A DNA stretch of 64,000 nt, taken from Nodosilinea nodulosa PCC 7104. GTDB taxonomy: Bacteria > Cyanobacteriota > Cyanobacteriia > Phormidesmidales > Phormidesmidaceae. Numbering within the stretch: position 1 is the stretch's first letter; every line of letters starts with the position of its first letter. Shown one piece after another: positions 47,405 to 62,388 of the stretch. The notes beneath the pieces were generated by a model. The model saw only the letters and a program-made list of their open reading frames with translations. It had not been told where the DNA came from and made no database searches. The stretch covers positions 637,181-701,180 of the forward strand of contig NZ_JH976538.1 of the NCBI RefSeq assembly GCF_000309385.1. The letters are read 5' to 3'. The position numbers were made by a program, and so were the translations under genes.

Positions 47405-47583
47405 AGCAGTCCGTTGGCAGGGGCGTAACACAGTTCCCTTCATCTTCCTGGATTGCGGGTTCCCTGCAAAGGGCGCGGGGATAGATAACAGGCCAGGGAC
47501 AATGGCACCATCGACAGTTTTTAGGGTTTTTTGCCTTGGGGTCACCCTCCCCCCCATTCAGCGGTAGAATAGCAAAGCCCCTT

Positions 47584-47670
47584 GGAGAGGTGGCAGAGTG
47601 GTTGAATGCGGCAGTCTCGAAAACTGTTTGGGGGTCACACCTCACGAGGGTTCGAATCCCTCCCTCTCCG
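47584..47670 (+). tRNA. tRNA-Ser (anticodon CGA)
   Basis: The 87-nt sequence folds with acceptor GGAGAGG/CCTCTCC and discriminator G. The anticodon stem GCAGT/ACTGT encloses loop CTCGAAA, giving anticodon CGA. There is a long class II variable arm (GGGGGTCACACCTC) and a T-arm GAGGG-TTCGAAT-CCCTC. CCA is not encoded. It reads UCG serine codons. The gene remains intact although a tyrosine recombinase gene begins about 110 bp downstream, so it is probably the attachment site of the following island. Confidence 0.95.
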
Positions 47671-47714
47671 TACCCGGCAAGGCTTTCGGCGGTTTAGGCA
47701 CGATCAGTTAGATC

Positions 47715-47782
47715 GACCTAGACCTAGCCTAACTGGGGTGATTCGTGAGAAATTTAGGTCTGCAAAAAAGACCTAGACCTAG
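47715..47782. other. Direct repeats and hairpin beside the tRNA and recombinase gene (possible integrase arm sites)
   Basis: GACCTAGACCTAG occurs exactly at 47715-47727 and 47770-47782. TAGGTCT-N7-AGACCTA (47755-47775) forms a 7-bp hairpin overlapping the second copy. The repeats lie between the tRNA 3' end and the recombinase ATG. They fit the spacing of integrase arm-type sites or an autoregulatory operator; this is inference. Confidence 0.5.
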
Positions 47783-47786
47783 TGCC

Positions 47787-48857
47787 ATGATTACCACCGA
47801 GCAGCTTGAGAGGGCCAATAAAGGGCTAAGTCATTGCCGGATAGTTTTGAAACCCGGCTATCAAACACTCTGCCTAAAGGCTACTCTTCCGCCCAAGCCA
47901 GGGCAGGAGGGTAAGCGACGGCAGCAGATTATCTCCATCAAGTGCAAGGCCACTGGTCCAGGTCTGAAGGTGGCTAAAGCTCATGCCCAGCGGCTCGATA
48001 GTGAGCTGGCCTTGAATAGATTTGCCTGGGAGAACTGGGGCTATCGGCAAAAGCAAGCCGCTCAGAGCAGGCCCCTCGACGGGTTCATTGCGATCAAGCG
48101 GAGTCAGATTCAACCATCCAGCCTCAGTCTCTACCTGCCCATCGTGGGCCAGATAGAACAGCTTGGCGGTGAGCTGACCACTGAGCAGCTGGTGGCCCTG
48201 GTGCGCGATCGCAGTGAAGACCACTCGAAGAATCGCAAGACCTGGTGCCAGGTCTGCGCTCAAGTGGCTGAGTATCTGGGCCTCGACCCCAAGCCTATCA
48301 GGGCCATAGCCGGAAGATACCAGGCTAAACCCGTAAACCCATCTGACCTTCCCACAGACGATCAGATCATCGAAATCTGGGAAGGCATGGGGGAGCACTG
48401 GCAATGGTTCTACGGCATGATGGCCACCTATGGGTTGAGGCCCCATGAGTGTTTCCATGTCGATACCGAAGTACGCCAGGGTACATTGATCGCAAACGTG
48501 CGGAAGGAAACTAAGACCGGAGCCAGAATCGTACTGCCGTTGCCGGGGGAATGGTGCGATCGCTTCAACCTGGCCAGTAAGCGTTTGCCCGATATCATCA
48601 CAGAGGGGCGAGATAACCGCAGGCTCAGTGAACGGATCAGCCTACGGTTTCGGGACAAACAGGTGCCCCACACACCCAAGGCATTAAGACACGCCTATAG
48701 CTGTCGTGGGGCACGGTACGGTATTCAACCGGACGTTATGGCCCGAATGATGGGGCATTCAATTTCGGTTCACTGCAAGACCTATCAGGCAGCGATCAGC
48801 TTGACTCAGTACCAGGCTGTGTTTGCTCAGGCTGAGTCCCTGATAAATCGCTCTTAG
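47787..48857 (+). CDS. Tyrosine recombinase/integrase of the tRNA-Ser island
   Basis: The 356-residue protein has an N-terminal arm/core-binding region (~1-185) and a C-terminal catalytic domain. The catalytic residues visible are R218 (GLRPHE), the KETKTG beta-hairpin lysine near 243, R301 (KALRHAYS), H324 (MMGHS) and nucleophile Y333 (KTYQ). The usual first His of the HxxR motif is replaced. It lies directly behind tRNA-Ser and points away from it. Met 47787 is preferred; a GTG at 47745 is in frame but would run through the GACCTAGACCTAG repeats. The 3' end overlaps the convergent gene ending at 48796 by 62 bp. Confidence 0.92.
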   Translation: MITTEQLERANKGLSHCRIVLKPGYQTLCLKATLPPKPGQEGKRRQQIISIKCKATGPGLKVAKAHAQRLDSELALNRFAWENWGYRQKQAAQSRPLDGFIAIKRSQIQPSSLSLYLPIVGQIEQLGGELTTEQLVALVRDRSEDHSKNRKTWCQVCAQVAEYLGLDPKPIRAIAGRYQAKPVNPSDLPTDDQIIEIWEGMGEHWQWFYGMMATYGLRPHECFHVDTEVRQGTLIANVRKETKTGARIVLPLPGEWCDRFNLASKRLPDIITEGRDNRRLSERISLRFRDKQVPHTPKALRHAYSCRGARYGIQPDVMARMMGHSISVHCKTYQAAISLTQYQAVFAQAESLINRS

Positions 48858-58660: not shown

Positions 58661-60805
58661 CTAGGCGTTAACTGATTTTTGGAATACTTGGAAAATGCCA
58701 CTAACAGAGGTTCCCTCGGCCCAACCGTGCTCTACCTCCTCATGGGTGCAAAGCTCCATGTCCATCGTGAGCAGGCTTACTCCCTTGAGAGAGAAGATCG
58801 CCAGCTGCCCACCGGGGACCAGAAATTGAACTGACTTCTCAGCGTGAACTTGGGCCTGGTTGTTGTTCTTCCCGAATGGCGGGTTGCTCACGATCAGGTC
58901 ATAGGTGCCCAGGTCGTCGGGGGTGAGGTAGAGAAAGTTAGCCTTCATTACCTCAAAGCCCTTGAGCCGTAGAATCTCGGCCTGGGTGTCGGCAACCTCA
59001 ACGCACATCAGGTAAGCTGGATCGCCATCCTGAATCACCTCGGCCAGCCGCCCGGTTCCGGCCTGGGGTTCGAGCACACGCTTACCCTCGAAGCTCAAGC
59101 CCTCAAGGTATTCTTGGGCAATGTGCTCTTTGGTTGGGTAAAAGTCGGTCCACTTGCGATTAGCGCCGACCAGGCTCAGCTCTAACCGGGTGGCCGGGTC
59201 AAGCTCGGGCTTGGCGGCAAGTACCTCCAGAAACTCACGGCAGGCCTGCTTGAGTTCGTAGACGGTGCCAATCTCCATGCGCTCAAGGCGCTTGATCGGC
59301 AGCATGGCATCATGGATCGACTCCCAGGCCCACCGGGCAGAATGGTTGCGCCGCTTCCACTCGGGGCAGGCCGCAAACTTCTCCAGGGCATCCCAGTCCT
59401 TACCCTTGTTCTGGAAGATCAGATAGGGAGACTTGGTGTAGTTGTACTGCTTGTGCAGCCGTTCGTAGGCGCGATGGAAACCGGCCTGTCTGGTCAGGTT
59501 GTTGTAGAGGTTGTTCAGCCAGTCCCGGCTGATAGACGGGTAGGGAAACTGGACGTACTCTACATCAGCCTCGCAAAAAGGCTGGGCCACTGCGTCGGCA
59601 TGGGACCGACTCTCGGCCTGTGCCCGCCGCCACCGGGCATCACGGAACAGGGCAAAGAGTTGGTGAACCTCAGAGCCAAACCGTACCCGGTCAAGCCACT
59701 GTAGGCCACCCTGGGCTAGTCGGTCGCAGATGGCCTCCAGCGTGTCGGCAATCTGGATCTGATAGTGGCGATCGCTCAGGCACGATTCATAGATGCGGGC
59801 GCGGCGGGCCGTGTTAACCAGGTGGTCCTGGTCGATCCAGTCCTGGGCACCAGAACGGATCGACTCGGCCAGGGCTTGTAGGTGGTGGATGGCATTGAGC
59901 TGGCGTTTCTCGGCAAACTGCTCGGCAGTCTCCTCCCCGTTGCCTTGGTCAATCTCAATGAACTCCTTGGCCTTGGCCTCGTCGTAAAAGACAAAGCCTT
60001 TGCTCCACCGGGAGTAATACCCGTCGTGAGCCTTGGCACGGGCCTTGAGCTGCTTGAAAGCATCTGGCTCAACCCGATCGTCCAATCGAGCAACCCAAAT
60101 ATCTCGCAGCTCTTTGGTGTGCCACTCCTTATCGATCGTCCACTGTTTGCCTTCTAAGGCATCAGTGCCAATCTCCAGGCGCGAGGCACGTTCACTGATC
60201 CGCTGGGATCGGGTGCGCTCAGCTACCAGTCTCTCAAGAGTTTCTTGCTGGTCAGCAGACAAGCCTTTGACCCGACGAAGCTCTAAGTAGTCGTCAATGG
60301 TCTGAGGGTCGTTGAGACGGGCAGTATAGGCCTTCAGCTCGGCTATGTGGTCAGCCTTGCGTTGCTCATAGGCAGCGGCTAGGCCGGTCAGGTGGTCCTG
60401 GGTCCACCTATAGGCCTGTCTCTGCTCAGCCACAATTTCATGACGGGGGCCAACCCCTGAAAATGTGATGAACTGATTAGAACCATCAGATGGAATAAAC
60501 TTTATGGCCAGGTTGCCAAGGGCAGTTTTGACAAAGTAGACTTTCTTTTCCCCAGACCTAGGGAAAAGGTGAAAGGTTTTGCAAATCTTCTTGACGGTCC
60601 AGGCGCGACCCATAAGCTCAGCTTTAAGGGTTTCATAGTTCTCGTAGAACCATTCCCACCATTCAGGAATTTCAGATAGCTCTACATTCCCACGACGAAG
60701 CTGAGTGACAAATTCGATCAGAGAAGACAGATCTTTTTGCTCAATAGTAGAATCCAATTTAAGTTGCTGCATGGTATTATCAATAGAGATAAAGCGTGTT
60801 GGCAT
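58661..60805 (-). CDS. Island DNA methyltransferase (N6-adenine type, NPPF) with large N-terminal region
   Basis: The 714-residue protein carries a class I SAM methyltransferase domain in its last ~140 residues. Motif I is VLEPQAGTGRLAEV (from ~577), and the catalytic motif IV is LIVSNPPFGKNNNQ (NPPF at ~641). NPP(F/Y) marks amino-methyltransferases acting on DNA adenine. The preceding ~450 residues include long charged helices (AYEQRKADHIAELKAYTARL) and a region with WTIDKEWHTKELRDIWVARLDDRV. No restriction motif (PD-D/EXK or DEAD) is seen. Start Met 60805 lies beyond the GC hairpin at 60821; Met 60772 is an alternative. It follows the sliding-clamp gene. Confidence 0.85.
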   Translation of the reverse strand: MPTRFISIDNTMQQLKLDSTIEQKDLSSLIEFVTQLRRGNVELSEIPEWWEWFYENYETLKAELMGRAWTVKKICKTFHLFPRSGEKKVYFVKTALGNLAIKFIPSDGSNQFITFSGVGPRHEIVAEQRQAYRWTQDHLTGLAAAYEQRKADHIAELKAYTARLNDPQTIDDYLELRRVKGLSADQQETLERLVAERTRSQRISERASRLEIGTDALEGKQWTIDKEWHTKELRDIWVARLDDRVEPDAFKQLKARAKAHDGYYSRWSKGFVFYDEAKAKEFIEIDQGNGEETAEQFAEKRQLNAIHHLQALAESIRSGAQDWIDQDHLVNTARRARIYESCLSDRHYQIQIADTLEAICDRLAQGGLQWLDRVRFGSEVHQLFALFRDARWRRAQAESRSHADAVAQPFCEADVEYVQFPYPSISRDWLNNLYNNLTRQAGFHRAYERLHKQYNYTKSPYLIFQNKGKDWDALEKFAACPEWKRRNHSARWAWESIHDAMLPIKRLERMEIGTVYELKQACREFLEVLAAKPELDPATRLELSLVGANRKWTDFYPTKEHIAQEYLEGLSFEGKRVLEPQAGTGRLAEVIQDGDPAYLMCVEVADTQAEILRLKGFEVMKANFLYLTPDDLGTYDLIVSNPPFGKNNNQAQVHAEKSVQFLVPGGQLAIFSLKGVSLLTMDMELCTHEEVEHGWAEGTSVSGIFQVFQKSVNA

Positions 60806-60820
60806 GTATGTGTCAAACGG

Positions 60821-60854
60821 GGCTGGCAACGTAACGATTGCCAGCCTTTTTTTT
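60821..60854 (+). terminator. Intrinsic terminator oriented for the plus strand
   Basis: GGCTGGCAA-N8-TTGCCAGCC (60821-60846) is a perfect 9-bp stem followed by eight T (60847-60854) on the plus strand. All genes here are on the minus strand, so it would stop antisense transcription running toward the clamp gene. On the minus strand the hairpin is preceded, not followed, by the tract. Confidence 0.75.
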
Positions 60855-60857
60855 GGT

Positions 60858-62030
60858 CTATTCACGAATCTGTATCGGCATGACCAGATAGAGAAAGTTC
60901 TGTTCAGTCAAAAACTGAAAGATGACAGGAGATGTCGCCACATTGAGCTTGATAGTCACCTTTGGCGAGTTTGAAACTTTGAGCGGTTCAATGAGATAGT
61001 TCACATTGAAGCCCATTTTCTCTATGCCAATGTGGGAGCATGGCAGCCCGGTATCGGTAGATGCGCTGGCTACTTCAGCAGCTTCAGCTTTGATGATCAA
61101 AGTTTCGCCGGAGAAGTTGAACTCAACCACATCGTTTTTATGTGCGGCAATGAGCTTGGCATACTCAAGAGCTTCCAAAAGTTTTTGTCGATCAAACTCA
61201 AGTTCATAGGCAAACTTCTTTGGAACAAGTTGGGGATAGTTAGGGTACTGCCCTTCTAGCACCCGAGACGTTAGCGTAGTTTTTAGATCTGGAAGTTTGA
61301 ATGTGACGTAGGAAGAGTGCTCGGCCCATTCAATCTGGGTTGTCTCAGAACCTTGAGCAACCTGCTTGAAAGTGGTCAGGAACTTATACGGAATAGTCAT
61401 CGGCCAGGTTAAATGTTCCCTGACTTCCTCATCAAAAGTGACTACAGAAAGACGATGCCCATCGGTTGCAGCCATCTCCTTGTTTAGATGAACTCCAGTC
61501 AAGACTTGTTTGGATTCATCCCTGCTAGAAAACGGATTGACCCGATCAAGAATCGCAATAAAATCCTTGGTCGGCAAGGCGATAAATTGATCGGATTCAA
61601 TAGCTGGAATATAGGGATAATCCTCGGGGTCCAGGCCTCGGGTAGAGCCTTGCTGATTTGTACCCTTAATTGTTACCTCATGGTTTTCAACTTTGAGGGT
61701 CACAACTGAGTCCTTGAGCTGATTAAGGATATCAATCGCCAGAACAGGAATGGTAAATTTGCAAGGAGCCGTGGAGCTAATGACAGTGGTTTCGATCGCA
61801 ATTGACGATATTTCGTTGCTTGCAAAAATGGAGCAACATGTATCCTCAATCGTTATGACAATTTCGTGCATTACCGGGCGGGAAGACTTCTTATCAATGA
61901 AGTGCTTGGCCCTGGTAAGAACGTCGAGAAAGTCAGCGCGAACAATTTCAATGTAGATCCCTGGATCAAGATCCAGGGATTCTGATGGAGACTCTAGAAC
62001 AGCGGTCGTGGCTTTTTTAGGCATTACCAA
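60858..62030 (-). CDS. DNA polymerase III beta subunit (sliding clamp) homologue of the island
   Basis: The 390-residue protein matches the three-domain DnaN fold. It starts with a ~25-residue extension (MVMPKKATTAVLESPSESLD) before the usual FLDVLTRAKHFIDKKSSRPV. It contains PEDYPYIPAIESDQFIALPT, the conserved AATDGHRLSVVTFDE near 190 and the hallmark C-terminus FLYLVMPIQIRE. Clamps tether DNA polymerases and other replication and repair factors. A second clamp gene in an integrated element suggests autonomous or host-diverting replication. It overlaps the upstream gene by 14 bases and precedes the methyltransferase. Confidence 0.92.
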   Translation of the reverse strand: MVMPKKATTAVLESPSESLDLDPGIYIEIVRADFLDVLTRAKHFIDKKSSRPVMHEIVITIEDTCCSIFASNEISSIAIETTVISSTAPCKFTIPVLAIDILNQLKDSVVTLKVENHEVTIKGTNQQGSTRGLDPEDYPYIPAIESDQFIALPTKDFIAILDRVNPFSSRDESKQVLTGVHLNKEMAATDGHRLSVVTFDEEVREHLTWPMTIPYKFLTTFKQVAQGSETTQIEWAEHSSYVTFKLPDLKTTLTSRVLEGQYPNYPQLVPKKFAYELEFDRQKLLEALEYAKLIAAHKNDVVEFNFSGETLIIKAEAAEVASASTDTGLPCSHIGIEKMGFNVNYLIEPLKVSNSPKVTIKLNVATSPVIFQFLTEQNFLYLVMPIQIRE

Positions 62031-62388
62031 ATAATCCTTTAGCTGATTGCAAAAATTCGATAATCGCTTTTGCTTGGGCAGGTTTAATAGAAAGTGTTTC
62101 AGAGAAAGCCTTGATTCTCTCCTTGCGTAGATCCTTTTCTACAACAGGAGTAAGTTGTAGGGTTAGCTCACTCCTGATTTGATCCTTCTTATTTTTGATG
62201 TATATTTCATGAAGCTTTTCAAGCTCAGGCAAGGATTCGGATTCCAGAAGTATATCCGTCAGGAGTAAAGGCTTTTGGTCGCAAAGTGTCAAGAATGCGT
62301 TGCGAAATGATTGTTGCTGAGAAAGTTCTTTGAGCTGGTCTAAAACTTCCCATTCACTTAAGGCAAAGCGATCGAGTTGAGTAGTCAT
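62017..62388 (-). CDS. Island hypothetical helical protein
   Basis: The 123-residue protein is helical throughout: RFALSEWEVLDQLKELSQQQ, PLLLTDILLESESLPELEKL and EKDLRKERIKAFSETLSIKP. The ending AQAKAIIEFLQSAKGLFG has the shape of a clamp-binding (QLxLF-like) tail but no match can be claimed. It overlaps the clamp gene by 14 bases and its upstream neighbour by four (ATGA). Confidence 0.7.
   Translation of the reverse strand: MTTQLDRFALSEWEVLDQLKELSQQQSFRNAFLTLCDQKPLLLTDILLESESLPELEKLHEIYIKNKKDQIRSELTLQLTPVVEKDLRKERIKAFSETLSIKPAQAKAIIEFLQSAKGLFGNA

Follow-up and report, generated by a model that had tools for sequence, protein, structure and literature searches.

Beta sliding clamps encoded by phages and plasmids are already known, and the one described here adds one more. 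Burkholderia phage KL1 has a published clamp that lies beside a phage polymerase (PMC3483164), and phage-encoded clamps of the bacterial type (PHROG 947) also occur in Synechococcus phage S-H1, Nodularia phages and Rhizobium phage 16-3. Clamps of the cyanobacterial type are carried by mobile elements such as Gloeothece pP742402 and Trichormus plasmid C. Some clamp-carrying cyanobacterial megaplasmids have dnaX near the clamp, and in one case holA too. Clamp matches in our searches came from at least 92 IMG/VR contigs, from 282 plasmid records and from 69 phage-collection records, a few of them apparently host contigs, such as a Salmonella record that includes dnaA. To find a second clamp carried by a mobile element, which the first-pass annotation regarded as unusual, is therefore not rare.

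We analyzed a window of 64,000 nucleotides from Nodosilinea nodulosa PCC 7104, whose 6.89-Mb genome consists of two contigs. The window lies on contig C2 (792,599 bp). The first-pass annotation had made its reading depend on another dnaN being present in the genome. The host dnaN was found on the other contig, C1, so the clamp in the window is the second one of this genome. Two other genomes of the genus (L069 and L071) also have a second clamp, in open frames of 611 and 564 codons; these two, which are related, nest with the dnaN of the genus.

Just past a tRNA-Ser(CGA) gene predicted by ARAGORN (47583..47671, plus strand), the GC fraction falls from about 0.60 to 0.41-0.54. This tRNA gene is the integration site and contains the left copy of a 60-bp att repeat (47612..47671, plus strand). 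The right copy lies at 131816-131875 in extended window coordinates (C2:768996-769055), and the two match exactly over 26 + 33 bp with one mismatch. The distance between the repeats corresponds to an element of 84.2 kb that runs on past the window to C2:769055. A phage integrase of the tyrosine-recombinase type (47745..48857, plus strand; PHROG 1, E = 3e-10) is accompanied in the element by a large terminase, portal, major capsid protein, exonuclease, SSB and thymidylate kinase. Judging from the att repeat and the integrase, terminase, portal and capsid genes, the integrated island reported earlier is a temperate phage. Among its other products is a 347-aa protein (L007:10454-11497, minus strand) in which a Dam-type methyltransferase region is joined to a DUF1643 domain.

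The structural genes of the prophage resemble those of Synechococcus phage S-EIV1, with identities of 56% for the major capsid protein, 37-46% for the terminase and 35% for the portal, and the genomes are similar in size. Outside these genes the two phages differ. A family A polymerase is annotated in S-EIV1, but no clamp or integrase, and tblastn gave no match for either of these two genes, which the prophage has. No primase match between the prophage and S-EIV1 was found either. We therefore propose kinship to the S-EIV1 lineage for the structural module only, since no PolA or primase shared by both was detected. At least 598 stretches in IMG/VR matched this lineage, and a related capsid gene was found in only two other cyanobacterial genomes among 386. 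PolA was present in S-EIV1 and in 4 of 10 large contigs of the lineage. No clamp was found in 16 contigs of the lineage, an absence that carries little weight since these records are fragments.

The clamp gene encodes 388 aa (60858..62024, minus strand). The mechanical ORF (60858-62030, minus strand) opens at a TTG at 62030, but the likely start is the ATG at 62024, which we preferred because it has a ribosome-binding-like AAAGGA upstream and overlaps the stop of the preceding gene. That 123-aa upstream gene (62017..62388, minus strand) shares 8 bp with the clamp gene at its start, as seen in the ORF list and junction sequence, and had no confident family match in Pfam or PHROG. On the other side, a 734-aa N6-adenine methyltransferase-like gene (58661..60865, minus strand; PHROG 15406, E = 2.8e-92), for which a later start is possible, overlaps the clamp stop, again by 8 bp. 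The clamp gene thus overlaps both of its neighbors in an operon-like arrangement. The methyltransferase-like protein is related to parts of Salisaeta, Vibrio and Pseudomonas phage proteins.

All three beta-clamp Pfam domains scored over cut-off and were consecutive in the prophage protein (PF00712, PF02767 and PF02768; E = 2.7e-12, 6.4e-16 and 6.6e-18), which also matched PHROG 947, "DNA polymerase processivity factor" (E = 1.3e-50). An AlphaFold2 model of the monomer, built from a 60-sequence alignment, had a mean pLDDT of 91, and Foldseek matched it to PDB structures of bacterial beta clamps (E about 1e-32, TM about 0.85). The protein is a complete three-domain bacterial beta clamp of the DnaN type. 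With its gene inside the prophage, this agrees with the earlier description of a complete, element-encoded clamp.

Ahead of the first clamp strand stand 22 residues, MPKKATTAVLESPSESLDLDPG (61959..62024, minus strand), that are predicted to be disordered (pLDDT about 50 over residues 1-20). Of 154 other clamps examined, 144 have an ATG close to where the domain begins (-12 to +6 residues). Among the ten that do not are fragments, genes with GTG starts and a few proteins of greater length. The extension is genuine, and nearly all relatives are without one. The first-pass annotation had put the extra N-terminal residues at about 25, close to the number found. If flexible, as the model predicts, this tail could bind another phage protein.

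The prophage clamp shares with the Nodosilinea-type chromosomal DnaN the three-domain fold and the C-terminal YLVMP motif. It differs in its location in a prophage, in its N-terminal extension and in its diverged dimer interface, and the two are 35-38% identical. Its top similarity was to the genus's own dnaN, at 38%, and our searches revealed no relative closer than about 39%. A search of 386 genomes of the phylum at E <= 1e-52 returned only this genome's own two clamps, and a single-protein scan of IMG/VR yielded no confirmed close relatives. The phage clamps compared were at most 31% identical to it, and those of S-H1 and the Nodularia phage compared lack the extension. The Gloeothece and Trichormus plasmid clamps were about 30% identical, some with changed dimer cores. 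Megaplasmid clamps differ further in being carried by conjugative plasmids and, in several cases, in having C-terminal tails. Almost no gene neighborhood was held in common with S-H1 or the IMG/VR clamp contigs. In two trees the prophage clamp sat on a very long branch within the clade of cyanobacterial clamps. Grouping it with its own genus was not rejected (p-AU 0.61), and the tree holding both together scored slightly better. An origin within the cyanobacteria therefore appears fairly safe, and capture from its own genus is possible.

Matches to PolIII-alpha and PolA in the genome were located on C1 only, and PolB had no match anywhere in the genome. Within the prophage we detected no DNA polymerase of family A, B or C, a search that an unrecognised family would escape, and we identified no clamp-loader gene. 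A 944-aa prophage protein had a weak primase match. Another, a 496-aa protein that is weakly PAPS reductase-like (L007:16603-18093, minus strand), has QQLQLFI at its C-terminus, a textbook motif for clamp binding. Across the phage proteome, clamp-binding motifs were no more frequent than by chance (8 against 8.5 expected).

We compared the partner-binding pocket and the dimer core using the residue lists of a review (PMC11139829). Residues were mapped by sequence alignment and numbered as in the Salmonella clamp, in which all 31 listed positions have the residue published for E. coli. The pocket of the prophage clamp is identical to that of the host clamp at 17 of 18 residues, compared with 35% identity overall, and the S-H1 clamp has the same pocket as the prophage clamp. 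Mobile-element clamps that are about as similar overall retain between 10 and 18 of the 18 host residues, and pocket conservation is common to most cyanobacterial-type clamps. As the pocket is kept in these clamps as well, it shows retained function rather than a special fit to this host. The first-pass annotation had raised the idea that the clamp recruits host polymerase. This is well supported by sequence, given a pocket nearly identical to the host's and a prophage with no detectable polymerase of the three families.

The dimer interface has a different character. An edge strand of domain I is diverged (clamp residues 122-130, E. coli 102-110; 61635..61661, minus strand, computed from residue numbers). 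Neither its Gly at E. coli position 106 nor its Thr at 108 recurs in any other clamp of an alignment of 104, which has no gaps in this region. The hydrophobic dimer core at positions 78, 106, 272 and 273 reads I, G, L and I, so that three of the four are kept and the aromatic one is lost. A non-hydrophobic residue in this core was present in 15 of 45 mobile-element clamps and in 0 of 56 chromosomal ones (Fisher p = 1e-6, or 7e-5 with the genus thinned; kinship among the sequences means that both p-values make the evidence look stronger than it is). Eleven of these 15 keep at least 15 of the 18 host pocket residues. In the other four (from Nodularia, AmM-1, Salinibacter and Arthrobacter phages) the pocket also departs from that of this host, matching it at 10-12 of 18. 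These patterns could mean that the diverged dimer surface prevents mixing with the host clamp while the pocket still takes the host polymerase, a private ring with a shared dock. We put this forward tentatively and regard it as rather doubtful. Loss of the aromatic residue at position 106 could instead mean a weak dimer. Resistance to host control, also raised in the first-pass annotation, is no more than conceivable in view of the diverged interface.

Taking these results together, we consider it likely that the gene encodes the beta clamp of a temperate cyanophage integrated in tRNA-Ser and akin to the S-EIV1 lineage, a replication factor working with host Pol III. Use of host Pol III is proposed because the pocket is of the host type and no phage polymerase was detected. 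Following induction of the prophage, the clamp would be loaded by the host clamp loader, as we assume here, and would then hold host Pol III on phage DNA, along with other proteins that bind the pocket. It may thereby supplement or replace the host clamp. With less confidence, we suggest that the divergence of its dimer surface would lead it to pair with itself, giving homodimers and no rings mixed with the host's clamp.

Three other explanations were weighed against this one. The clamp might act as a takeover factor or hub that disturbs host replication, by competing for the host loader or polymerase or by carrying phage enzymes such as the methyltransferase on DNA. Its host-like pocket and diverged ring surface would suit this role, as would the overlap of its gene with the methyltransferase-like gene and the canonical motif QLQLF at the end of one phage protein. 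However, the phage proteome as a whole is not enriched in such motifs, and phages commonly carry clamps together with replication genes, so we think this role unlikely. About equally improbable is that the prophage is defective and the gene, now without function, a passenger or a decaying copy. The very long branch and unusual dimer strand speak for this, and no orthologue turned up on which selection could be gauged, but the frame is intact, the full-length fold is confident and the pocket is nearly that of the host despite 65% divergence elsewhere. The terminase, portal and capsid genes are intact as well.

A much less probable explanation is that the gene is a duplicated chromosomal dnaN, a host paralogue rather than a phage gene. 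The top similarity to the genus's own dnaN (38%) and the unrejected clade with the genus point in this direction. Against it, the gene sits between the att repeats of a prophage that has an integrase and capsid genes, and neither it nor the phage portal is present in the other genus genomes searched. These observations largely refute the host-paralogue explanation.

This temperate cyanophage with an S-EIV1-type structural module appears to use the host polymerase and to bring its own clamp, in contrast to S-EIV1 and several uncultured relatives, which bring a polymerase. If private rings prove general, the clamps of mobile elements would make up a second pool in the cell, orthogonal to that of the host. 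Should the dimer surface of this clamp be truly orthogonal, cyanobacteria would have in it a natural second clamp, with which the use of Pol III by phages could be studied free of mixing with the host ring.
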